Shown: positions 7,845 to 42,247 of the stretch, one piece after another
How the letters are laid out: every line of letters starts with the position of its first letter
Numbering within the stretch: position 1 is the stretch's first letter
Source of the DNA: Actinophytocola sp.
GTDB taxonomy: Bacteria > Actinomycetota > Actinomycetes > Mycobacteriales > Pseudonocardiaceae
Assembly: GCA_009379975.1 (NCBI GenBank)
Contig: WHSS01000015.1
Location: 1-42,247, forward strand
Reading direction: 5' to 3'
Length of the DNA stretch: 42,247 nucleotides
The notes under the pieces: generated by a model
What the model was told of the DNA's origin: nothing
What the model saw: the letters and a program-made list of their open reading frames with translations, nothing else
Database searches by the model: none
Made by a program: the position numbers and the translations under genes

Positions 7845-9490
<1,646 letters not shown>

Positions 9491-9571
9491 GCTGTCTCCC
9501 TGGGACGTAGTCACCTATATGACAATTGGCGAAAGCATGGAAAAGGCATGTTGCGCGAGATCGCGTCCTAC

Positions 9572-9587
9572 GTTTCTCCGCTGTGAA
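9572..9587 (-). promoter_or_regulatory. possible GlnR half-box upstream of amtB
   Basis: On the minus strand TTCAC, a 6-nt gap and GAAAC are read. This resembles the actinobacterial GlnR element gTnAC-n6-GaAAC, which controls amtB operons in Streptomyces. The second half expected 22 bp away is poor, so this is a tentative call. It sits 82-97 bp upstream of the amtB ATG. Confidence 0.35.
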
Positions 9588-9662
9588 CCAACGGACAGCT
9601 TGTGTTAAGGGCGCGTTTCGTACACCCGGTGTCCACCCCCCAAATGGCTGATTCGGAGAACA

Positions 9663-10568
9663 GTGACCAGCGAAGTTCCACGTAACGTGCCCGTTAATGT
9701 ACGGATGGTGACCAACTCCGCACCGCACGCGCCGGCACCGTCCGCCGTCGAGGCACTGCGGTGTTCGGTATGCGGCGCATCACTGCACGTCACCGGCCGC
9801 TCGCTGCGCTGCGACGAGGGCCATGCCTTCGACATCGCCAAGCAGGGCTACGTGAACCTGCTCCACGCGCGAGTGCCCAGCGGGACCGCCGACAGCGCGG
9901 AAATGGTCGCCGCGCGGGCCGAGTTCCTCGACGCGGGTCATTTCGCGCCCCTTGCCGAGGCCATCGCGGGCGTGGCGAAGGCGGCGGTGCCCGGAGCTGC
10001 GCTGATCCTGGACGCCGGGGGCGGCACCGGCTATTACCTCGCGAAAGTGCTGGACGCCCTGCCCGGCGCGACCGGGCTTTCGCTCGACCTGTCCGCGGTG
10101 GCCTCTCGCCGCGCGGCAAGGGCGCATGCCCGCGCGTCGGCCGCGGTGTGGAACTTGTGGCACCCGCTGCCGCTGGCCGGCGGCTGCGCGTCGCTGGTGC
10201 TCAATGTGTTCGCGCCCCGCAACGGCGCCGAGTTCCGCCGGGTCCTGCGCGAGGGCGGCAGGCTGGTCGTGGTCACCCCCACCCCGGAGCACCTGGCCGA
10301 GCTGGCGGAGCTGACCCGGCTGCTGGACGTCGACCCCGACAAACCACGGCGCGTCGCTGCGGCCTTGAACCCGCACTTCACCGAGGCGACAAGCGAGGCG
10401 GTCGACTTTTCCCTCGAGCTGACCGCCGCCGAGGTGCGCTCGCTGATCGGGATGGGGCCGACCGCCCATCACCTGCGGCCGGGGGCGTTCGAATCGCTGC
10501 CCGCGACGGTGCGGGTGACGGCGTCCTGCACGGTCGCGGTGTACGAACCACGGAGCGCCGCCGCATGA
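9663..10568 (+). CDS. 23S rRNA (guanine-N1)-methyltransferase, RlmA family
   Basis: This SAM-dependent methyltransferase of 301 residues has an N-terminal zinc-ribbon (CSVCG … RCDEGHAFD) and the usual RlmA segment KQGYVNLL, followed by the SAM-binding loop LDAGGGTGYYLAKVL and the substrate-side motif VFAPRNGAEFRRVLREGG. The family methylates G745 or G748 of 23S rRNA helix 35; the second type (TlrB/RlmA-II) gives tylosin resistance. Which base is modified cannot be decided here. The GTG at 9663 has GGAGA upstream; an ATG at 9705 is the alternative. The stop overlaps the start of a mini-ORF. Confidence 0.88.
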   Translation: MTSEVPRNVPVNVRMVTNSAPHAPAPSAVEALRCSVCGASLHVTGRSLRCDEGHAFDIAKQGYVNLLHARVPSGTADSAEMVAARAEFLDAGHFAPLAEAIAGVAKAAVPGAALILDAGGGTGYYLAKVLDALPGATGLSLDLSAVASRRAARAHARASAAVWNLWHPLPLAGGCASLVLNVFAPRNGAEFRRVLREGGRLVVVTPTPEHLAELAELTRLLDVDPDKPRRVAAALNPHFTEATSEAVDFSLELTAAEVRSLIGMGPTAHHLRPGAFESLPATVRVTASCTVAVYEPRSAAA

Positions 10569-31081: not shown

Positions 31082-32635
31082 TCAGCGCCCGGGTGTCGCC
31101 CGCAACGCCAGGAAGAAGTCGACCCGGTCCTCGAGCTTGGCCAGGGACCGGCCGGTCAGCTTCTCGATCCGTTGGATCCGGTAGCGAAGCGTGTTGACGT
31201 GCAGGTGCATTCGCTCGGCGCACTGCGTCCACGATCCCGACGACTCCAGGAATGCCTCCAGCGTGTTGACGAACTCGGAGCCGTGCCGTGCGTCGTACTC
31301 CAGCACCGGGCCGAGCACCCGGGAGCGGAACGTATGCCGCACGTCGTCGGGCACGGTGGCAAGCAGCAACGCGTGTGAGTCGATCTCGTCGGTCGCCAAC
31401 ACGGCTACGCGGCCGGCGCGCAGTTCGGCGAGCATCCGCGCCTGCCTGGCCTCACTGAGCGCGGCCAGCAACCCGCCCGAACCCGACGTGCGCATGCTCA
31501 GCCCCAGCAGCAGGCGGCGATCGGTCAGCGCGACGTCGAGGGGCTCGACGGTGGCGCGCAACGGTCCCGCCAGCATCTCACCGTCGACCGGCACCAGCGC
31601 GACCGCCTCGTCGTCGACCGCGGTGACCAGATACACCTCGTCGGGCAGCAGCGCGGCGAGCACCTCGGCCAGCACACCGCACGCGAGCTGGCCGTCGGGT
31701 TGCGGGCTCAACGCCGCGGACACCGCGACATACGGACGATCGGCGAAGCCCGTCTCGGCGAGCCTGCCCGCGACCTCGGCCGGGCTCGCGCGCCCGGAGA
31801 GCACCAACCGGACCAGTTGCTCGACGGCGACCCGTTCGGCCCGGCGGCTCTCCTCCAGCCGCTCCCGTTCCAGCGCGATCAGTGACGTCAGCTCGGTGAC
31901 CGACTCGTGCAGCGCCCGCGGCCACTCGCGATAGTCGCCTTTACAGGCGAGAAACCAGGCGGTGGCGCGGGATTCCGTTGGTGCCCCGACACTGAAGAGC
32001 GTGTACCCGCCGGTTCCGAAGTGGACGACGGAGGGCAGGATCTTCGCCTCGAGGAACCGCTCGGCGAGCCACCGTGCGGGCACCTCCGCCTGCTGACCGG
32101 CGGCGGCATGCCCGGGCAAGCGCCCGGTCGCGGTCAGCAGCCAGCAGGGTACTTCGGCGTCATCGCCCCACAAAGTCAGCAGCGCGTCCAGCCCGGCGCC
32201 CTCGGCTACCGCGGCCAGCAGCCTGCGCCGGCGCCCGAGTTGCTCGGCGAGATCGCCCCGGCGTTCGACGTCGAGCTGATGGAGGACGCGCTCGGTGATC
32301 GTCGCGAACGAGACCTCGATCGGCACCTCGATCAGCGGCACACCGTGCTCACGGCACGCGGCGACCAGATCCTCAGGAACCGTGCCGTACGCCGCGTCGC
32401 CCGCCGCGACGCAGGCGACGTGCCGCGCCGATGCGGCCGCGACGAAGGTGGCCGCGTCCGCGGCGTCCCGGCGCCACATCATGCCGGTCAGCACCAGCTC
32501 ACCACCGGTGAGGTAGCGCCCCGGATCGAGCAGATCGGTGGTGTAGACCCAGCGGATCGGCCGTTCGAGGCCATCGTCACCGGTGAGGGGCACCAGGTGC
32601 AGATCCGCCATCTCCACCAGATCGCGCACCTTCAT
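31082..32635 (-). CDS. pucR: PucR family transcriptional regulator
   Basis: The product is a 517-residue regulator with an N-terminal PucR domain (MKVRDLVEMADLHLVPLTGD … GRYLTGGELVLTGMMW), a middle ligand-binding region, and a C-terminal helix-turn-helix (LEAFLESSGSWTQCAERMHL, HVNTLRYRIQRIEKLTGRSL). The Bacillus subtilis namesake activates purine catabolism genes in response to allantoin-type signals. It diverges from the uraD-hiuH-uricase-xdh cluster across 191 bp, so it is the obvious local regulator. The ATG at 32635 starts the conserved domain; a GTG four codons upstream is possible. Confidence 0.92.
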   Translation of the reverse strand: MKVRDLVEMADLHLVPLTGDDGLERPIRWVYTTDLLDPGRYLTGGELVLTGMMWRRDAADAATFVAAASARHVACVAAGDAAYGTVPEDLVAACREHGVPLIEVPIEVSFATITERVLHQLDVERRGDLAEQLGRRRRLLAAVAEGAGLDALLTLWGDDAEVPCWLLTATGRLPGHAAAGQQAEVPARWLAERFLEAKILPSVVHFGTGGYTLFSVGAPTESRATAWFLACKGDYREWPRALHESVTELTSLIALERERLEESRRAERVAVEQLVRLVLSGRASPAEVAGRLAETGFADRPYVAVSAALSPQPDGQLACGVLAEVLAALLPDEVYLVTAVDDEAVALVPVDGEMLAGPLRATVEPLDVALTDRRLLLGLSMRTSGSGGLLAALSEARQARMLAELRAGRVAVLATDEIDSHALLLATVPDDVRHTFRSRVLGPVLEYDARHGSEFVNTLEAFLESSGSWTQCAERMHLHVNTLRYRIQRIEKLTGRSLAKLEDRVDFFLALRATPGR

Positions 32636-32666
32636 GGCTACCCGCACTCCCTTCGCCGCGGCGTGA

Positions 32667-32712
32667 GTCGTGAGTGATGAAGCGTGCCCCAACGTGCACT
32701 TTCACGCACGAG
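32667..32712. repeat. GTCGTGAGTGAT…CACGCACGAG palindromic repeat, copy 3
   Basis: This is the third member of the family seen on both sides of the Sir2 gene. It lies in the pucR-uraD divergent region, 32 bp upstream of the pucR start. Confidence 0.75.
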
Positions 32713-32826: not shown

Positions 32827-33354
32827 ATGGCGGAAATCACACTCCACCCGCACGAGCGGGCGCTGACCAGGTTGAATGGTCTCAGCGCCGAGGCGGCCAG
32901 GCGAGAGCTGCTCACGTGCTGCGCCGCGACCGACCTCGCGGACTCGGTAGCCGCAAGCAGGCCGTATGAATCTTTGGATGATCTGCTGAACGCGTCCGAT
33001 GACGCCATCGCGAAGCTGACCGAGAACGGCATCGCCGAGGCGTTGGCCGCGCACCCGAGGATCGGGCAGCGCGCCGACGGCGAGGGCCGCGAGGCCGACT
33101 GGTCCCGTCGCGAGCAGTCCGGCGCGGCGGACGCGTCACCCGCGGTCAAGCGAGCGCTGGCCGAAGGCAACGCCGCCTACGAGCAACGTTTCGACCAGGT
33201 GTTCCTCATCTGCGCCGCCGGGCTTTCCGCCGAAACCATGCTGGCCGACCTGCACACCCGGCTGGGCAACGACCCGGCGACCGAACGTGCCGTGGTCCGG
33301 GAAGAACTGCGCAAGATCACCCGGCTACGGCTGCGGAAGCTGGTGGATTCATGA
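32827..33354 (+). CDS. uraD: OHCU decarboxylase
   Basis: UraD decarboxylates 2-oxo-4-hydroxy-4-carboxy-5-ureidoimidazoline to S-allantoin. The 175-residue helical protein keeps the catalytic residues: His76 in AAHPRIGQ and Glu96 in SRREQSGA, plus VFLICAAGLSAETML near the C-terminus. It starts at ATG 32827 with no clear ribosome site, so a leaderless mRNA is possible. The stop overlaps the hiuH start (ATGA). It is the only catalytically complete UraD module in the window. Confidence 0.94.
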   Translation: MAEITLHPHERALTRLNGLSAEAARRELLTCCAATDLADSVAASRPYESLDDLLNASDDAIAKLTENGIAEALAAHPRIGQRADGEGREADWSRREQSGAADASPAVKRALAEGNAAYEQRFDQVFLICAAGLSAETMLADLHTRLGNDPATERAVVREELRKITRLRLRKLVDS

Positions 33355-33677
33355 GCCTGTCGACCCACGTCCTGGACGCCGCGACCGGCCGCCCCGCCGC
33401 CGGGATCCGGGTGCGCATGGAAAGCCACGAGAACGGCGCCTGGGTCACCATGGCCGAGGCGGCCACCGACGCCGACGGGCGCATCCGCGAGTTCACCGAG
33501 GCCGGACCACGCGCGGGCATGCATCGCCTGGTCTTCGACACCGCGGGCTACTTCGACGGCACGCCGTCCTTCTACCCCGAGGTTGCGGTGACGTTCCAGG
33601 TCACCGACTCGGCCGAACACCACCACGTACCCCTGCTGCTCAGTCCGTTCGCCTACTCGACCTACCGAGGGAGTTAG
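33351..33677 (+). CDS. hiuH: 5-hydroxyisourate hydrolase (transthyretin-like)
   Basis: This enzyme hydrolyses 5-hydroxyisourate, the uricase product, to OHCU. The 108-residue transthyretin-fold protein has STHVLDAATGRPA at the N-terminus, GMHRLVFDTAGYF in the middle, and the diagnostic C-terminal HHVPLLLSPFAYSTYRGS. It is translationally coupled to uraD. Confidence 0.97.
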   Translation: MSLSTHVLDAATGRPAAGIRVRMESHENGAWVTMAEAATDADGRIREFTEAGPRAGMHRLVFDTAGYFDGTPSFYPEVAVTFQVTDSAEHHHVPLLLSPFAYSTYRGS

Positions 33678-33679
33678 CC

Positions 33680-33751
33680 ATGCGCGACCGGCACCGACGA
33701 AGAGGTGATGGGGCAATGAGCGCATCACCATGCCGAACGGAGAGAGGCTGA
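33680..33751 (+). CDS. 23-codon mini-ORF bridging hiuH and uricase
   Basis: An ATG 2 bp after the hiuH stop opens a 23-codon frame (MRDRHRRRGDGAMSASPCRT…) whose TGA overlaps the uricase ATG (TGATG). It contains the GCGCGACCGGCACCG junction block at 33682-33696. As with the other bridges, a coupling function is more likely than a functional peptide. Confidence 0.35.
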   Translation: MRDRHRRRGDGAMSASPCRTERG

Positions 33752-34632
33752 TGACACCGACCATCCAACTGGGCGCGAACCAGTACGGCAAGGCAGAGAC
33801 CCGCGTCGTGCGTGTCAACCGCAGCGGCGGCGCGCACGAGATCACCGATCTCAACGTCTCCACCGCGCTCTCCGGCGACCTCACCGACACCCACGTGACC
33901 GGTGACAACGCCAAGGTGCTGCCCACCGACACCCAGAAGAACACCGTGTTCGCTTTCGCCAAGGAGCACGGCATCGGCGAGATCGAGGAGTTCGGGCTGC
34001 ATCTGGCGCGGCACTTCGTCGACTCCCAGGAACCGATCCACCGCTCCCGCATCACCATCGAGCAATACTTCTGGGACCGCATCGGCGTCGGCGGCACGCC
34101 GGCGCCGCACTCGTTCCAGCGCTCCGGTGTGGAGACGAGGACGGCGACGGTGACCTACGACGGCACCACCTCATGGGTGGTCTCGGGCCTGCGGGACCTG
34201 GTCGTGCTCAACTCGACCGACTCCGAGTTCTGGGGCTACCCGAGGGATCGCTACACCACCTTGCCGGAGACGCACGAGCGCATCCTCGCCACCGCCGTCA
34301 ACGCGGAGTGGCGGCACGTGGCGGCGGAAGGCGACTGGGGCAAGTCCTACGCGGAGGTGCGCAGGCACCTGGTCGAGGCGTTCGCGCAGACGCACAGCCT
34401 GTCGTTGCAGCAGACGCTCTACGCCATGGGCAGCCGGGTGCTGGACAACCGCCCGGAGATCGCCGAGGTTCGCCTGTCGCTGCCGAACAAGCACCACTTC
34501 CTGGTCGACCTCTCCCCCTTCGGCCTGACCAACGACGACGAGGTGTACTTCGCCGCCGACCGCCCTTACGGCCTGATCGAGGGCAACGTGCTGCGCGACG
34601 ACTCACCCGAACCCGGCCTGGCTTGGGGGTGA
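33751..34632 (+). CDS. pucL: urate oxidase (uricase)
   Basis: Uricase oxidises urate to 5-hydroxyisourate without cofactor. The 293-residue protein shows LGANQYGKAETRVVRV (active-site Lys), VLPTDTQKNTVFAFAKEHGI (Thr of the triad), LNSTDSEFWGYPRDRYTTLP and LPNKHHFLVDLSPFGL. The ATG at 33751 is chosen because MTPTIQLGANQYG is where homologues start. The next gene begins 10 bp after the stop. Confidence 0.97.
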   Translation: MTPTIQLGANQYGKAETRVVRVNRSGGAHEITDLNVSTALSGDLTDTHVTGDNAKVLPTDTQKNTVFAFAKEHGIGEIEEFGLHLARHFVDSQEPIHRSRITIEQYFWDRIGVGGTPAPHSFQRSGVETRTATVTYDGTTSWVVSGLRDLVVLNSTDSEFWGYPRDRYTTLPETHERILATAVNAEWRHVAAEGDWGKSYAEVRRHLVEAFAQTHSLSLQQTLYAMGSRVLDNRPEIAEVRLSLPNKHHFLVDLSPFGLTNDDEVYFAADRPYGLIEGNVLRDDSPEPGLAWG

Positions 34633-34642
34633 CGGCGTAACC

Positions 34643-35548
34643 ATGGAGTTCCTCCGACCGGCCACCTGGGCCGAAGCACTCGCCGCGAAGGCCGAGCACC
34701 CCGACGCGCTGCCCATCGCGGGCGGCACCGACGTCATGGTCGAGCTCAACTTCGACGTCAAGCGTCCCCCGTTCCTGCTGGACCTGACCCGCGTCACCGA
34801 ACTGGCCGACTGGGCACCCGACGGCGGCATGCTGCGCGTCGGCGCCGGCGTCACCTACAGCAGGCTCATCAGCGAACTCGGCGACCAGCTGCCGGGCCTG
34901 GCGATGGCCTCACGCACCGTCGGCTCGCCGCAGATCCGCAACCGCGGCACCGTCGGCGGCAACCTCGGCTCCGCATCGCCAGCGGGTGACGCACATCCGC
35001 CGCTGCTGGCCGACAGCGAAGCCGGCGCGGTCGTGGAGGCGCATTCGGTGCGGGGCACGCGGTTCATCCCGATCAGCGAGTTCTACGTCGGCGTCAAGCG
35101 CAGCGCGCTGGAGCCAGACGAGCTGATCGCCGCGTACTGGCTGCGGCCCGCGGCGGGCCCGCAGCAGTTCTCCAAGATCGGCACCCGCAACGCCATGGTC
35201 ATCTCGGTTACCGCGTTCGCGATCGCCCTGCACCCGGCCAGCCGGCGGGTAGGCACCGGTTTCGGCTCGGCGGCCCCCACCCCGCGCCGGGCAACCGAAG
35301 CCGAGCAGTTCCTCAGCGACGAACTCACCGCGTCGGGCCGCTGGGAGTCGCGCGCGGAGCTCGACCCGGCCGCCGTGGCGCAGTTCGGCGAACTGGTCGC
35401 CGCGGCGGCCTCCCCGATCGACGACGTGCGCGGCACCGCGAGCTATCGCCGCCACGCACTGTCCGTCATGGCGAAGCGAACGCTCGTTTGGTCCTGGAGC
35501 GACTTCCGGAACGCGCGACCGGCACCGAACTCGAGGCGAACAGCATGA
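34643..35548 (+). CDS. xdhB: xanthine dehydrogenase FAD-binding subunit
   Basis: This is the medium flavin subunit of a molybdenum hydroxylase. The 301-residue protein has the FAD-binding PIAGGTDVMVELN and the second motif TVGSPQIRNRGTVGGNLGSASPAGD, then the CO-dehydrogenase-type C-terminal domain ending TASYRRHALSVMAKRTL. The last 20-odd residues (WSDFRNARPAPNSRRTA) are encoded in part by the junction repeat. The three subunits are split xdhB-xdhC-(deaminase)-xdhA. Confidence 0.93.
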   Translation: MEFLRPATWAEALAAKAEHPDALPIAGGTDVMVELNFDVKRPPFLLDLTRVTELADWAPDGGMLRVGAGVTYSRLISELGDQLPGLAMASRTVGSPQIRNRGTVGGNLGSASPAGDAHPPLLADSEAGAVVEAHSVRGTRFIPISEFYVGVKRSALEPDELIAAYWLRPAAGPQQFSKIGTRNAMVISVTAFAIALHPASRRVGTGFGSAAPTPRRATEAEQFLSDELTASGRWESRAELDPAAVAQFGELVAAAASPIDDVRGTASYRRHALSVMAKRTLVWSWSDFRNARPAPNSRRTA

Positions 35549-35600: not shown

Positions 35601-36077
35601 ATGCGCGTGAAGTGCACCGTCAACGGTGAAAAGCACGAGATCGACGACGTGTGGGAGGGCGAGAGCCTGCTCTACGCGTTGCGGGAACGCATGGGCCTGC
35701 CTGGCTCGAAGAACGCATGCGAGCAAGGCGAATGCGGCTCCTGCACCGTCTACCTGGACCAGACCCCGGTCTGTGCGTGCCTGGTCGCGGCCGGGCAGGC
35801 GCAGGATCGCGACATCGTGACCGTCGAGGGGCTGGCAGGCGAGGAGAAGCTTCACCCGGTTCAGCAGGCCTTCCTGGAAGCGGGCGCGGTGCAGTGCGGC
35901 TTCTGCACCCCCGGTTTGCTAGTCGCCACGCATGACCTGCTCGAGCGCGAAGAGCAGCCCAGCGACCCCGAGATCCGCGAAGCACTCGCGGGCAACCTGT
36001 GCCGCTGCACCGGATACGAAAAGATCCTGGACGCCGTGAAGCTGGCGGCATCCCGCAAGGCCGAGGCGGCCACATGA
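35601..36077 (+). CDS. xdhC: xanthine dehydrogenase [2Fe-2S] subunit
   Basis: This is the small electron-transfer subunit, 158 residues, with two [2Fe-2S] sites: the plant-ferredoxin type CEQGECGSCTVYLDQTPVCAC and the helical-domain type CGFCTPG … GNLCRCTGYEKI. GGAGG lies before the ATG. The stop overlaps the deaminase start (ATGA). The xdhC letter follows the small-subunit usage here, not the molybdenum-cofactor chaperone also called XdhC. Confidence 0.94.
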   Translation: MRVKCTVNGEKHEIDDVWEGESLLYALRERMGLPGSKNACEQGECGSCTVYLDQTPVCACLVAAGQAQDRDIVTVEGLAGEEKLHPVQQAFLEAGAVQCGFCTPGLLVATHDLLEREEQPSDPEIREALAGNLCRCTGYEKILDAVKLAASRKAEAAT

Positions 36078-37429
36078 CCGCGACGGTGATCGAGGGCTGC
36101 GCGGTGGCGACGGTCAACGCCGCGGGCACCGAGTACGAGCAGGGCCACGTCGTCATCGAGGGCAACCGCATCGCGGCCGTCGGCCCGGGCGCGGCGCCCG
36201 CCGAGTTGACCGTGGACGCGGTGCGCGTCGACGGCAGCGGCTGCCTGGCGACGCCCGGCCTGATCAACACCCATCACCACCTCTACCAGTGGGCCACCCG
36301 CGGGCTCGCCCAGGACGAGACGCTGTTCGGCTGGCTCACCGAGCTCTACCCGGTGTGGGCGCGCATGGACGCGGGCATCGTCTCCGCCGCCACGGGCGCC
36401 GCGCTCGGCTGGCTCGCCAAGTCCGGCTGCACCACCAGCACCGATCACCACTACGTCTTCCCGCGCGATGCGGGCGACCTGCTGGCCGCGGAGATCGAAG
36501 CGGCCACCCGTCTCGGCGTGCGCTTCCACCCGTGCCGGGGCTCGATGGACTTCGGCCGCTCCGCAGGGGGCCTGCCGCCCGACGAGGTCGTCGAGGACCG
36601 CGACACCATCCTCACCGCCACCGAGGACGCCATCAACGCATGGCACGACCCGGAACCGGACTCGATGGTGCGGATCGCGGTCGCGCCGTGCTCACCGTTC
36701 TCCGCCTCCGGCGAGCTGATGCGGGAGTCTGCCGAACTGGCCCGCCGCAAGGGCGTCCGGCTGCACACGCACCTGGCCGAGACGGTCGAGGAGGAGGCGT
36801 TCGCCCGGGAGAAGTTCGGCCGGAGCCCGGTCGAGTACATCGACGACCTCGGCTGGCTCGGCGACGACGTGTGGCTGGCCCACTGCGTCCACCTCGACGC
36901 CGCCGCCGTCAAACGCTTCGCCCACACCGGAACGGGCGTGGCGCACTGCCCGACCTCCAACGCCCGGCTGGGCGCCGGCATCGCGCCGGTGGCCGACCTG
37001 ATGGCCGCTGGCGCGCCGGTCGGCCTCGGCGTCGACGGCGCGGCCTCCAACGAGCAGAACTCGCTCGGCGACGAACTCCGTCAAGCGACGCTAGCCGCCC
37101 GGCTGCGTGGCGGGCCCGGCGCGCTCACCGCCCGGCAGGCACTCTCGCTCGGCACCATCGGCGGCGCCCGCTGCCTCGGCCGCGACGAGGATCTCGGCTC
37201 GCTCGAAGTGGGCAAGCTCGCCGACATCGCGCTCTGGCGGCTCGACGGCCTCGGCCACGCCGATATCGCCGACCCGGTCGCCGCGCTGGTGCTCGGCCCG
37301 AAGCCGCCGCTAGCCCGGCTGCTGGTCGGTGGCCGCACCATCGTGGCGGACGACCAGCTCATCACCGTCGACGAAACCGGCCTCGCCCGCGCGGCCCGCG
37401 CCGCCGCCCGCAGGATTCAGGAGAGGTGA
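36074..37429 (+). CDS. 8-oxoguanine deaminase-type amidohydrolase
   Basis: The product is a 451-residue amidohydrolase of the TrzN/AtzB/8-oxoguanine deaminase group. It has the metal site GLINTHHHLYQWATRG, TTSTDHHYVFPRDAG, RLHTHLAETVEEE, WLAHCVHLD and GLGVDGAASNEQNSL. The HHHLYQWATRG segment and the xanthine-dehydrogenase context favour 8-oxoguanine deaminase (giving urate) or a related purine deaminase. The ATG at 36074 overlaps the xdhC stop. It lies inside the xdh operon, splitting the small and large subunit genes. Confidence 0.88.
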   Translation: MTATVIEGCAVATVNAAGTEYEQGHVVIEGNRIAAVGPGAAPAELTVDAVRVDGSGCLATPGLINTHHHLYQWATRGLAQDETLFGWLTELYPVWARMDAGIVSAATGAALGWLAKSGCTTSTDHHYVFPRDAGDLLAAEIEAATRLGVRFHPCRGSMDFGRSAGGLPPDEVVEDRDTILTATEDAINAWHDPEPDSMVRIAVAPCSPFSASGELMRESAELARRKGVRLHTHLAETVEEEAFAREKFGRSPVEYIDDLGWLGDDVWLAHCVHLDAAAVKRFAHTGTGVAHCPTSNARLGAGIAPVADLMAAGAPVGLGVDGAASNEQNSLGDELRQATLAARLRGGPGALTARQALSLGTIGGARCLGRDEDLGSLEVGKLADIALWRLDGLGHADIADPVAALVLGPKPPLARLLVGGRTIVADDQLITVDETGLARAARAAARRIQER

Positions 37430-37437
37430 ACACACCC

Positions 37438-39963
37438 ATGACCCCGTCCCCAGCCCGCTCGGATCAGCGGCTCGACGCGCCCATAACGGGCCGCGGTTGG
37501 TCCGTTCGCGATTCGGGCCGCGGGAGCCACCCCGATACGTCCCAACCCATCGCCCGCACTGCAGGGGGTGGCTCGCGGGGGCCGGATGACGTCGACAACA
37601 CGGTCACGCGCACCGGCCTCGTCAAGGCAACCTCTACGCGAATGGACCAGAGCTCTCATTCGGGAAAGGTCGGTGAAAGCCCGCTGCGACCCGACGGCAC
37701 GCTCAAGGTCACCGGCGAGTTCGCCTACTCGTCCGACATGTGGCTGGCCGACATGCTGTGGGGCGCCACGCTGCGCAGCCCGCACCCGTATGCGTGCATC
37801 CGCTCGGTCGACCTGACAGAAGCCGTCAAACTGCCGGGTGTCTACGCGGTGCTGACCCACGAGGATGTGCCCGGCGAGAACCTCTATGGCCTCGAGCACG
37901 CCGACCAGCCGGTGCTGGCCGTCGACGTGGTGCGCTATCAGGGCGAGGCCGTCGCGATCGTCGCCGCCGATCACCCCGAGACCGCCCGCCGCGCCGTGGA
38001 GAAGATCGTCGTGGACTACGAGGTGCTGGAGCCGCTGGTCGATCCGGAGGTAGCCGCCTTCGGTGACATGGCTGACGACGTGCCGCGGCTGCACCCGGAC
38101 GGCAACAAGGGGGGTGGGCCCGAAGGGCAGGGGGGCGGGAAAAACATCGTGCGGCACCTGCCCATCCGTAAGGGCAACCCGGAGGCCACCGCCGATGTCG
38201 TGGTGCACGGCGAGTACGAGGTCGGCATGCAGGATCAGGCCTTCCTCGGCCCCGAATCGGGGCTTGCGGTGCCCGCCGAGGACGGCGGTGTCGACCTCTA
38301 CATCGCCACGCAGTGGCTGCACGTCGACCAGAAGCAGCTGTGCCGGGTGCTGGGCATGCCCGCCGCCAAGGTGCGGCTGACCCTGGCAGGCGTCGGCGGA
38401 GCATTCGGCGCTCGTGAGGACCTGTCGATGCAGGCGCACGCCTGCCTGCTCGCCCTGCACACCGGCAAACCGGTGAAGATGAGCTACTCCCGCGAGGAGT
38501 CGTTCTTCGGGCATGTGCACCGGCACCCCGCGAAGATGCGCTACGAGCACGGCGCGAACCGCGACGGCAAGCTGGTCTACGTCAAGGCGCAGATCATCCT
38601 CGACGGCGGCGCCTACGCGTCAAGCACGCCCGCGGTGGTGGCCAACGCCGCCACCCTCGGCGTCGGCCCGTACAAGGTCAACAACGTCGCGATCGACGGT
38701 TACGGCGTCTACACCAATAACCCGCCGTGCGGCGCGATGCGCGGCTTCGGTGCGGTGCAGGCCGCGTTCGGTTATGAGTCCCAAATGGACAAGCTCGCCG
38801 ACGCGCTGGGCATGGACCCGGTCGAACTCCGTATCCGCAACGCGATGGCCGAAGGCATCTCGATGCCGACCGGCCAGGTGGTCGACTCGGCGGCGCCGGT
38901 GGCCGAACTGCTGCGCCGCGTCGCCGCGATGCCCCTGCCGCCCGAACCGCAGCAGGACTCCTACGATCTGCGCCAGCTGCCGGGCGGCGTGTCGAACACG
39001 ACGCACGGGGAAGGTGTCCGGCGCGGTGTCGGCATCGCCATCGGCATCAAGAACGTCTGCTTCTCCGAAGGCTTCGACGACTACTCCACCGCGAAGGTCC
39101 GGCTCGAGGTCATCGGTGGTGAATCCGTCGCGATGGTGCACACCGCCGCGGCGGAGGTCGGCCAGGGCCTGGTGACGGTGCAAGCGCAGATCGCCAGGAC
39201 CGAACTCGGCGTGGAGCGGGTCACCATTCACCCGATCGACACCCAGATCGGCAGCGGTGGCTCGACTTCCGCATCGCGGCAGACCTACGTCACCGGCGGT
39301 GCCGTCAAGGCCGCGTGCGAGAAGGTGCGCGGGCGGGTGCTCAAGCTCGCCGCCGAACGGCTCGGCCGGCCGGCCGCCGCGCTCCGCCTCGACGGCGACA
39401 AGGTGGTTTCCGACGCCGACGGTGTGATGGCCGCCCTGGTCGACGTGCTGCACGAGGACGTCGTCGAGGAGACCGTCAAGTGGCGGCACCGGCCGACGCA
39501 CCCGCTCGATCCCGAGACCGGACAAGGCAATGCGCACGTGCAGTACGCCTTCGCGGCGCACCGGGCGGTCGTCGATGTCGACGTCGATCTCGGGCTGATC
39601 CGCGTGGTGCAGCTGGACTGCGCCCAGGACGTCGGTAAGGCGATGAACCCGGACGCGGTCGTCGGCCAGATCCACGGCGGCTCCGCGCAGGGCCTCGGCC
39701 TCGCGGTCATGGAGGAGATCCAGGTAACCGACGGCAAGGTCCGGAACCCGTCGTTCACCGACTACCTCATCCCCACGATTCTCGACATGCCACCGATGAC
39801 GGTGGACGTGCTCGAACTCGCCGATCCGCATGCGCCCTACGGCCTGCGCGGTGTCGGTGAGCCCCCGACGATCTCGTCGACCCCGGCGATCGTCGCCGCC
39901 ATCAGGGCGGCTACCGGAAAGGACCTGACCCGGGTCCCCGTGCAACCACACCACATCATCTAA
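37438..39963 (+). CDS. xdhA: xanthine dehydrogenase molybdenum-binding subunit
   Basis: This is the large catalytic subunit, about 841 residues. It shows VGESPLRPDGTLKVTGEFAYSS, the molybdopterin-binding GVGGAFGARED and GAMRGFGAVQA, EVGQGLVTVQAQIA, QDVGKAMNPDAVVGQIHGG and the catalytic glutamate in YGLRGVGEPPTIS. The start is uncertain: ATG 37438 follows AGGAGAGGTG at some distance, GTG 37426 overlaps the deaminase stop, and ATG 37642 would remove about 68 low-complexity residues that homologues usually lack. That extension contains an inverted repeat (37520-37532 / 37565-37577). Confidence 0.9.
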   Translation: MTPSPARSDQRLDAPITGRGWSVRDSGRGSHPDTSQPIARTAGGGSRGPDDVDNTVTRTGLVKATSTRMDQSSHSGKVGESPLRPDGTLKVTGEFAYSSDMWLADMLWGATLRSPHPYACIRSVDLTEAVKLPGVYAVLTHEDVPGENLYGLEHADQPVLAVDVVRYQGEAVAIVAADHPETARRAVEKIVVDYEVLEPLVDPEVAAFGDMADDVPRLHPDGNKGGGPEGQGGGKNIVRHLPIRKGNPEATADVVVHGEYEVGMQDQAFLGPESGLAVPAEDGGVDLYIATQWLHVDQKQLCRVLGMPAAKVRLTLAGVGGAFGAREDLSMQAHACLLALHTGKPVKMSYSREESFFGHVHRHPAKMRYEHGANRDGKLVYVKAQIILDGGAYASSTPAVVANAATLGVGPYKVNNVAIDGYGVYTNNPPCGAMRGFGAVQAAFGYESQMDKLADALGMDPVELRIRNAMAEGISMPTGQVVDSAAPVAELLRRVAAMPLPPEPQQDSYDLRQLPGGVSNTTHGEGVRRGVGIAIGIKNVCFSEGFDDYSTAKVRLEVIGGESVAMVHTAAAEVGQGLVTVQAQIARTELGVERVTIHPIDTQIGSGGSTSASRQTYVTGGAVKAACEKVRGRVLKLAAERLGRPAAALRLDGDKVVSDADGVMAALVDVLHEDVVEETVKWRHRPTHPLDPETGQGNAHVQYAFAAHRAVVDVDVDLGLIRVVQLDCAQDVGKAMNPDAVVGQIHGGSAQGLGLAVMEEIQVTDGKVRNPSFTDYLIPTILDMPPMTVDVLELADPHAPYGLRGVGEPPTISSTPAIVAAIRAATGKDLTRVPVQPHHII

Positions 39964-40042
39964 GGACGCGCGCCGCGCGGTGCCAGGCCATCGCGCTGCC
40001 GAAAGGCGCCCTTCACGCGAGCTCGCACACCAGGGAGCGGTC

Positions 40043-41983
40043 ATGTTCGGCAACACACGCACCACGAAACAGCCATCCGAGTCCCCACCGAGAAAATCCG
40101 CCAAGCACCCCGTCGACGAGGTGCTGCCGGTACCCAAGCTTGCGGTATACGGCTTGCAGCACGTGCTCACCTTCTACGCCGGCGCGGCGATCGTGCCGCT
40201 GCTGGTGGCGGGAGCGCTCGGCCTGGAAGGCGCGCAGTTGGCCTTCCTGATCAACGCGAACCTGTTCACCTGTGGCATCGCGACGCTGATCCAGACCATC
40301 GGGTTCTGGAAGATCGGGGTGCGCCTGCCCGTGGTACAGGGCACCACCTTCGTCGCGGTCGGGCCGATGATTGCCATCGGGTTGTCCAAGGGCGGCGGCG
40401 TGCCGGGGTTACTGGAAATCTACGGCGCGGTGATCATCTCGGGCGTCTTCGCCTTCGTGATCGCGCCGTTCTTCGCCAAGCTGGTCCGGTTCTTCCCGCC
40501 GATCGTGACCGGCACGGTGATCACCAGCATCGGGATCGTGCTGCTGCCGGTCGCCGCACTCGAAGCGGGCGGCGGCAACGCCGATGACCCGGAGTTCGGC
40601 AGCCTGCCCAACCTCGCGCTCGCCGCGATCACACTGCTGCTGATCCTGCTGATGTACCGGTTCTTCCGCGGCTTCGCGGCCACCATCGCCGTGCTGCTCG
40701 GCCTGATGGCGGGCACCGGCATCGCTGTGGCGCTCGGCCGGGTGGAGTTCGGCGGCATCGCGGAGGCGTCCTGGGTCGGCGTCATCACGCCGTTCCACTT
40801 CGGACTGCCCACCTTCGGGCTCGCCGCGATCACCTCGATGCTCATCGTCATGCTGATCACCGCGGTCGAGATGACCGGCGACACCCTTGCCGTCGGCGAG
40901 ATCGTCCGCAAGAAGGTGGGCCCGGACGGCATCGCGCGGGCCATCCGCAGCGGCGGGCTGTCCACGACCATCGGCGGCGTGCTCAACTCGTTCCCGTACA
41001 CCAGCTACTCGGCCAACGCCGGGCTGGTGCGGCTGACCGGGGTGCGTAGCCGGTTCGTGGTCGCGGCCGCGGGTGTCATGATGCTCGTCATCGGGCTGGT
41101 CCCGAAGACCGGCGCCGTGGTGGCGGCGATTCCGCATCCGGTGCTCGGTGGCGCTGGGCTGGTTCTGTTCGGGGCGGTCGGCGTCGTCGGCATCCAGATC
41201 CTGCGCCGCGCGGAGCTCACCGATCACCGCAACGTGGTCATCCTGGCCACCAGCCTCGGCTTCGCGCTGATCCCGGTGGCGTTCCCCAACTTCTACGCGC
41301 TGCTGCCGGCCGGGGCGCAGATGGTCTTCGCGAGCGGCATCACGATGGCCGCGCTGTCCGCGATCATCCTGAACCTCGTGTTCAACGAGTTCCGCCGCAA
41401 GCAGGCGGACCCGATCGACGCGCTGGCGCCGCCACCGTCGAAGGTGACGCTGGAGCAGGTCAACGCGATGCCGGACGCGGAGTTCGTCGAGCGGTTCGCC
41501 ACCGTTTTCCAGGGCGGTGCTTGGATCGCCGAGCGGGCGGCCCAGAAGCGGCCGTTCGACGCGGTGTACTCGCTGCGCCACGCGTTGCACAGTGCCTTGT
41601 TCGACGCGACGGTCGACAAGCAACTGCAGCTCATCCGGTCCTATCAGGATCTGGCGGGACCGGCGCTGGACGAGAAGCTGCTCGGGCCCGAGTCGCTGCG
41701 CGACCGCTGCGCGGCGGGGCTCGACAAGCTCGAGTCCGATGAGGACGAGCGGTTGCGTGAGATCAACGCGGCCTATCGGGAGAAGTTCGGCTTCCCGCTG
41801 GTGATCTGCGTCCGCGGCAGCACCAAGGAAGCGGTGCTGGCCACGGCGGAGTCCCGCTTGGGCAACTCCCCCGCACAAGAAACCGCCACGGCGCTGGTGG
41901 AGATCGCCAAGATCGCCAACCAGCGGCTCGCCGAACTCGTCGACGAACCAGCGGTCAACGCCGAGCAACCCGCGAACGCCTGA
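40043..41983 (+). CDS. NCS2 nucleobase permease fused to a UraD-fold domain
   Basis: The product is a 646-residue fusion. Residues about 30-460 are an NCS2/NAT nucleobase-cation symporter with 14 helices: LQHVLTFYAGAAIVPLL (helix 1 His), QGTTFVAVGPMIAIG, ITAVEMTGDTLAVGE (helix 8 Glu) and the signature region SANAGLVRLTGVRSRF, where Ala replaces the usual Gln/Glu/Pro. Residues about 467-635 are an OHCU-decarboxylase-like domain (TLEQVNAMPDAEFVERF … AYREKFGFPLVICVRG), but the catalytic AHPDLAG reads SYQDLAG (residues 533-539) and the SxxEQ Glu is Asp. Likely imports urate or xanthine; the tail looks non-catalytic. The ATG at 40043 follows GGGAG. Confidence 0.9.
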   Translation: MFGNTRTTKQPSESPPRKSAKHPVDEVLPVPKLAVYGLQHVLTFYAGAAIVPLLVAGALGLEGAQLAFLINANLFTCGIATLIQTIGFWKIGVRLPVVQGTTFVAVGPMIAIGLSKGGGVPGLLEIYGAVIISGVFAFVIAPFFAKLVRFFPPIVTGTVITSIGIVLLPVAALEAGGGNADDPEFGSLPNLALAAITLLLILLMYRFFRGFAATIAVLLGLMAGTGIAVALGRVEFGGIAEASWVGVITPFHFGLPTFGLAAITSMLIVMLITAVEMTGDTLAVGEIVRKKVGPDGIARAIRSGGLSTTIGGVLNSFPYTSYSANAGLVRLTGVRSRFVVAAAGVMMLVIGLVPKTGAVVAAIPHPVLGGAGLVLFGAVGVVGIQILRRAELTDHRNVVILATSLGFALIPVAFPNFYALLPAGAQMVFASGITMAALSAIILNLVFNEFRRKQADPIDALAPPPSKVTLEQVNAMPDAEFVERFATVFQGGAWIAERAAQKRPFDAVYSLRHALHSALFDATVDKQLQLIRSYQDLAGPALDEKLLGPESLRDRCAAGLDKLESDEDERLREINAAYREKFGFPLVICVRGSTKEAVLATAESRLGNSPAQETATALVEIAKIANQRLAELVDEPAVNAEQPANA

Positions 41984-41990
41984 CCTCCAC

Positions 41991-42032
41991 GGTGGATGCG
42001 CGGCAGGGCCCCGGCCCTGCCGCGCATCCACC
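41991..42032 (+). terminator. 20-bp perfect hairpin after the permease fusion gene
   Basis: GGTGGATGCGCGGCAGGGCC (41991-42010) pairs perfectly with 42013-42032 across a 2-nt loop, starting 7 bp after the stop codon. There is no U-tract. It probably ends or attenuates the xdh-permease transcript before the guanine deaminase gene. Confidence 0.75.
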
Positions 42033-42065
42033 AGCCCTTGCCTTATCCCACGAGAAAGTACTTCG

Positions 42066-42247
42066 ATGACCCACACCGCACCCGAACCCACCGACGCTCA
42101 CTGGCTTGCCTTCTCCGTCCGCTTGGCGAAGGAGAACGTCGCCGCCGGCGGCGGTCCCTTCGGCGCGATCATCGTGCGCGACGGCCAGTTGGTGTCCACC
42201 GGAACCAACCGCGTCACCCGCGACAACGACCCCACCGCGCACGCTGA
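42066..42247 (+). CDS. guanine deaminase-type nucleoside deaminase, 5' part only
   Basis: The first 60 residues of a cytidine-deaminase-fold enzyme are present: SVRLAKENVAAGGGPFGAII, VRDGQLVSTGTNRV, DNDPTAHA, cut at the zinc-binding HAE. The NVAAGGGPFGAIIV pattern fits guanine deaminase (GuaD type), giving xanthine for the dehydrogenase upstream; a tRNA adenosine deaminase relative is less likely. The gene runs off the right edge. Confidence 0.8.
   Translation, partial: MTHTAPEPTDAHWLAFSVRLAKENVAAGGGPFGAIIVRDGQLVSTGTNRVTRDNDPTAHA

Follow-up and report, generated by a model that had tools for sequence, protein, structure and literature searches.

The termini of NCS2 permeases lie in the cytosol in known structures. 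In UraD, the OHCU decarboxylase, the zebrafish residues His67 and Glu87 are those which we take to be catalytic from the structure papers on the enzyme (H67, E87 and R161 follow 2o70 chain numbering throughout). In Mycobacterium smegmatis, MSMEG_1293 (xanthine/uracil permease) is followed by MSMEG_1294 (OHCU decarboxylase), 1295 (transthyretin), 1296 (uricase) and 1298 (guanine deaminase) (PMC4617892, PMC4222082). This permease is raised together with the urate genes in nitrogen limitation, and uric acid supports GlnR-dependent growth of the organism (PMC4222082, PMC4617892); in addition, a phosphoarginine has been reported at R475 of MSMEG_1293 (PMC9604228). The MSMEG_1293-1298 gene order is that of mycobacterial loci in which the permease carries a UraD domain as a C-terminal tail (e.g. 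L104), and residue 475 of these fused relatives falls at the start of that tail; we infer that MSMEG_1293 is itself such a fusion. No description of an NCS2-UraD fusion family was found in the open literature searched, and one NCS2 survey that we checked does not mention the fusion.

A permease-UraD fusion in a purine-breakdown cluster

The window analysed here is a stretch of 42,247 nucleotides from Actinophytocola sp. (assembly GCA_009379975.1, contig WHSS01000015.1, positions 1 to 42,247, forward strand), in which the fusion is the last gene of a purine-breakdown cluster. The cluster starts with a PucR-type regulator on the reverse strand (31082-32692; PF07905 and PF13556), followed on the forward strand by an intact type-2 UraD domain (about 32875-33336), HIU hydrolase (UraH; 33351-33677, PF00576), uricase (33730-34632, PF01014), xanthine dehydrogenase FAD and Fe-S subunit-like proteins (34643-35548, PF00941, and 35601-36077, PF01799) and an amidohydrolase (36071-37429, PF01979), for which the genomic context suggests guanine deaminase activity. 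A frame resembling the xanthine dehydrogenase molybdenum subunit comes next (37606-39963, start approximate; named by reading its sequence rather than by a profile), and then the fusion. The initial annotation had placed an active UraD 7 kb upstream of the fusion, and the profiles and alignment bear this out, with His, Glu and Gln all present. According to NCBIfam this upstream enzyme belongs to TIGR03180 (type 2), whereas the fused tail belongs to TIGR03164 (type 1).

The fusion gene itself occupies 40043-41983 on the forward strand, with an ATG at 40043 and 646 codons for amino acids. The open frame, Pfam and NCBIfam agree with the earlier reading of an NCS2 permease and a full-length UraD-like domain in a single frame. 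PF00860 (Xan_ur_permease) scores 322 bits and PF09349 (OHCU_decarbox) 138 bits with its entire 155-position model covered; among the curated NCBIfam models, the permease part exceeds the cut-offs of both TIGR00801 and TIGR03173 (pbuX; 502 bits vs. 414), and the tail that of type-1 UraD TIGR03164 (140 bits vs. 96). The transmembrane part (40136-41395) resembles xanthine/urate permeases, and its closest structures, as judged from the AF2 model, are SVCT1, UraA and UapA, then SLC26 members. A linker of about 18 residues modelled at low confidence (41396-41449; pLDDT 58-73) leads to the UraD-fold tail (41462-41932), for which the AF2 model has a pLDDT of 88 and a pTM of 0.85, and for which the best PDB match is zebrafish OHCU decarboxylase 2o70 (TM 0.94 by target length). 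The whole-protein model has a pLDDT of 88 and a pTM of 0.74, and the cytosolic termini of known NCS2 structures place the tail in the cytosol.

From its family and its cluster, the permease would be expected to carry xanthine or urate. The NAT signature [QEP]NxGxxxxT reads ANAGLVRLT in the window (41012-41038), with Ala as its first residue, and most fused relatives have ENVGLVRLT; the window's version also occurs in two near relatives, and substrate choice could differ. Directly 3' of the fusion gene lies a strong hairpin (41991-42032; arms of at least 18 bases, -45.9 kcal/mol), which precedes a frame beginning at 42066 that reads as deaminase-like. The final 346 bases of the window (41902-42247) overlap the end of another contig of the same assembly, C58, at 99.1% identity (L249, 893-1238), and C58 probably continues the fusion locus.

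Loss of the catalytic His and constraint on the tail

The tail aligns with solved UraDs along its full length. In this alignment the zebrafish His67 column is Tyr535 (41642-41644), and the Glu87 and Gln88 columns are Asp555 and Arg556 (41702-41707); the numbering of these three residues starts one codon 5' of the ATG, at 40040, so that Tyr535 is Tyr534 when counted from the ATG. The motifs SYQDLAG and SLRDR, given in the initial annotation as the altered active-site segments, had thus been read correctly, and mapping the columns gives His to Tyr and Glu to Asp. No substitute His occupies the catalytic place in the window tail, which removes the possibility that an active His had simply been overlooked elsewhere, and the alignments to solved UraDs rule out chance or alignment error behind the loss.

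To place this tail in a wider setting, the survey drew on 80 relatives and on genomes from the phylum (396), the class (395) and Pseudomonadota (398); 84,980 species genomes were scanned in addition, as was a plasmid collection. The patterns for the scan of 84,980 genomes were derived from fused tails, and fusions with an intact His could escape them; the whole-genome searches used wider profiles. In total 87 NCS2-UraD fusions were found, comprising 85 in the main alignment and two plasmid copies (L142 and L143). In the 85 aligned tails the His67 column holds Tyr (36) or Phe (49) and never His, as is also true for all of the 40 clusters that they form at 80% identity, and the plasmid copies likewise have Tyr or Phe, bringing the count of fusions without the His to 87/87. 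One of the plasmid copies, L142, retains Glu-Gln and is a possible intermediate; it comes from Rubrobacter radiotolerans (8004-10001) and is named uraD (OHCU decarboxylase) in RefSeq. By comparison, the His is kept in 107 of 108 alignable standalone UraDs. It is also kept in all 55 UraDs checked that sit in long frames lacking an NCS2 domain, a set that consists of those opened and mixes real fusions with mere long open frames, and the notion that any fusion costs the His is thereby ruled out. One mycobacterial type-2 UraD-like protein, standalone and distinct from the fusions, has Tyr where the catalytic His would be (L026, 1474-2037 on the reverse strand; L245; L246), and no purine cluster surrounds it in the two regions viewed.

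The fusions occur in Actinomycetota (Pseudonocardiaceae, Mycobacteriaceae, Gordoniaceae, Nocardiaceae, Intrasporangiaceae, Nocardioidaceae, Rubrobacteraceae and others) and in a few Pseudomonadota (Labrys, Bosea, Variovorax and Lichenicoccus). The tails of this second group branch within the actinobacterial clade, in line with transfer. UraD, UraH, uricase and XDH are among the neighbours of the fused loci. An additional UraD match is present in 26 of 28 fusion genomes, the two exceptions being metagenome bins, and 24 of the 28 encode a uricase of the PF01014 family. Eighteen such copies, located outside the fusion loci, were read: His and Glu are present in 16, and the remaining two are the mycobacterial protein with Tyr.

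Despite the altered catalytic columns, the tail is clearly constrained. In close pairs its dN/dS is about 0.02-0.38 and mostly below 0.15 (approximate values, from experimental Biopython code on GC-rich genes), pointing to strong purifying selection on the domain. Across the same 51 loci, mean pairwise identity is 0.63 for the tails vs. 0.52 for standalone intact UraDs, and the tail is the more conserved partner in 94% of the 1275 pairs, which are not independent of each other. Tyr111, Pro118, Leu at 119, Arg138 and Arg161 (41924-41926 in the window) are invariant in 85/85 fused tails. The Glu87 column holds Asp in 79/85 and Glu in 6/85, E23 is replaced by Gln in 73/85, and N108 mostly by Ala or Thr. 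Purifying selection, together with conservation across the family, rules out decay or a pseudogene, and the combination of conserved substitutions in the catalytic columns with conservation elsewhere is what would be expected of a pseudoenzyme retained in a different role. We are therefore confident that the tail is a selectively retained domain that is no longer a decarboxylase. The low dN/dS and the 87/87 fusions without the His strongly support the earlier proposal that the domain is "kept, but probably not as a decarboxylase", and extend it from the window to the family.

Origin of the fused family

In the tail tree, the fused tails form one clade (SH-aLRT 98) within type-1 UraD, which is split from type 2 with full support. 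The clade is surrounded by type-1 UraDs of Actinomycetota, mostly from one family (f32) that includes the named Rubrobacteraceae of the fused set, and Phe at the His67 column marks a nested clade among the fused tails, with Tyr elsewhere. Some of these genomes, like those of Deinococcus and Priestia, have a tail-less permease gene directly 5' of an intact uraD, an arrangement that is a plausible starting state for the fusion. In the permease tree, on the other hand, a small number of basal fusions cluster with permeases that lack the tail, and a single fused clade is rejected (AU p 0.0037, a test limited by long branches). A single fusion event for both halves is thus disfavoured, since the tail tree allows one origin and the permease tree does not; re-fusion, recombination or gene conversion possibly contributed.

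Nested within the main fused clade of the permease tree are tail-less permeases of a Streptomycetaceae-like family (f18, inferred to be Streptomyces); this suggests that these relatives lost the tail and that it is dispensable there. Six of them (L188-L192 and L201) end in a short stretch, acidic or of low complexity, at the place of the UraD tail. One fusion genome also encodes a second, tail-less permease (L197, 7012-8544; G000:C274:7186-8481) that is 54% identical to the fused one.

Possible roles of the tail and comparison with known systems

The protein may be pictured as a purine (xanthine/urate-type) NCS2 permease with a UraD pseudoenzyme as its cytosolic C-terminus. In the simplest scheme the tail would have given up OHCU decarboxylation and become a control module beneath the membrane part, pairing with its counterpart on the other protomer of the permease dimer. 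The old pocket could bind a compound of purine breakdown (urate, OHCU or allantoin), and uptake would then track the status of the pathway. A sensing or gating role fits the evidence, and we put a regulatory or dimer-control function at about even chances. The narrower idea that the tail senses a pathway ligand in particular is more tentative, and many fused tails have lost S84 and N108, which, with the change of Tyr to Phe, means that the former ligand may no longer bind. Equally tentative is the fullest form of the proposal, in which a retired catabolic enzyme would serve as the permease's own metabolite sensor, gating uptake by an intermediate or product, and the fusions would represent an undescribed class of transporter.

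Several other explanations have to be weighed against a control role. The tail might act as a membrane scaffold that recruits UraH, uricase or active UraD, allowing unstable intermediates to be handled near the transporter. The presence of UraD, UraH, uricase and XDH genes in the purine/urate clusters that house the fusion is in keeping with this, and in Rubrobacteraceae the standalone UraD is of the same type as the tail, making mixed dimers conceivable. However, the intact UraD in the window and in most loci is type 2 and distant from the tail, and the expected cargo of the permease is xanthine or urate and not HIU or OHCU, so that channelling at the membrane would probably bring little benefit for the downstream reactions; we regard a scaffold as unlikely. 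For the same reason the suggestion in the initial annotation that the tail docks the upstream active UraD looks weak: contact through the UraD dimer interface would pair a type-1 tail with a type-2 enzyme. Several fusion genomes, moreover, encode their intact UraD away from the fusion. A purely structural tail, which would lend stability to the permease dimer or help it fold without any ligand, seems about as improbable as a scaffold: retention of the core of the fold alongside a changed former active site would suit such a brace, as would the possibility of loss seen in Streptomyces, but the changes are narrow (His only to Tyr or Phe, Glu only to Asp), and the invariance of Y111, R138 and R161 in 85/85 tails is not obviously needed by a mere brace.

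The same narrow replacement, with only Tyr/Phe and Asp/Glu at the two columns, could instead reflect a new catalytic activity in which Tyr and Asp serve another reaction, and the mycobacterial standalone protein has Tyr at this place too. However, more than half of the fusions have Phe for Tyr and hence no hydroxyl, and a new activity is in our view very improbable. Least probable of all is the function given by automatic annotation, in which the tail would have remained an active OHCU decarboxylase. The tail does lie above the TIGR03164 equivalog cut-off and RefSeq gives the R. radiotolerans fusion the enzyme's name, but the catalytic His is absent from every fusion, and intact UraD genes are present nearby or elsewhere in the genome.

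The annotation issue has practical consequences: TIGR03164, a model named OHCU decarboxylase, is matched by 51/51 fusions scanned, and pathway reconstructions relying on such curated models can err. The fusions also allow the conversion of an enzyme into part of a transporter to be tested cleanly: the step from His to Tyr/Phe is well marked, and close active relatives and tail-less relatives can serve as natural controls. If the tail does sense a ligand, it would reveal the way in which actinobacteria, mycobacteria among them, adjust purine uptake to breakdown, and would constitute direct feedback on uptake at the membrane.

Compared with type-1 UraDs (TIGR03164, PF09349; zebrafish 2o70 and Agrobacterium Atu2327, 2o8i), the fused tails share the whole domain and the predicted fold and are nested inside the type-1 tree; they differ in the change of His to Tyr or Phe, in having mostly Asp for Glu87, in the frequent loss of Asn108 and in the attached transporter. 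With NCS2/NAT (SLC23) proteins such as UraA, UapA, pbuX and the uric acid permeases, the fusion shares profiles and the structure of the membrane part, but where the tail-less relatives examined have a short C-terminus it has a soluble domain of 160 residues. UraD also occurs within larger proteins in allantoin synthase (5z5m) and in the long-frame UraDs of Proteobacteria and actinobacteria, and those checked retain the His. Finally, SLC26/SulP transporters with a C-terminal STAS domain have a related membrane fold and, like the fusion, a soluble cytosolic C-terminal domain, and the UraD tail may be positioned as STAS is beneath these structurally related transporters. UraD is unrelated to STAS, however, and the analogy is one of placement only.
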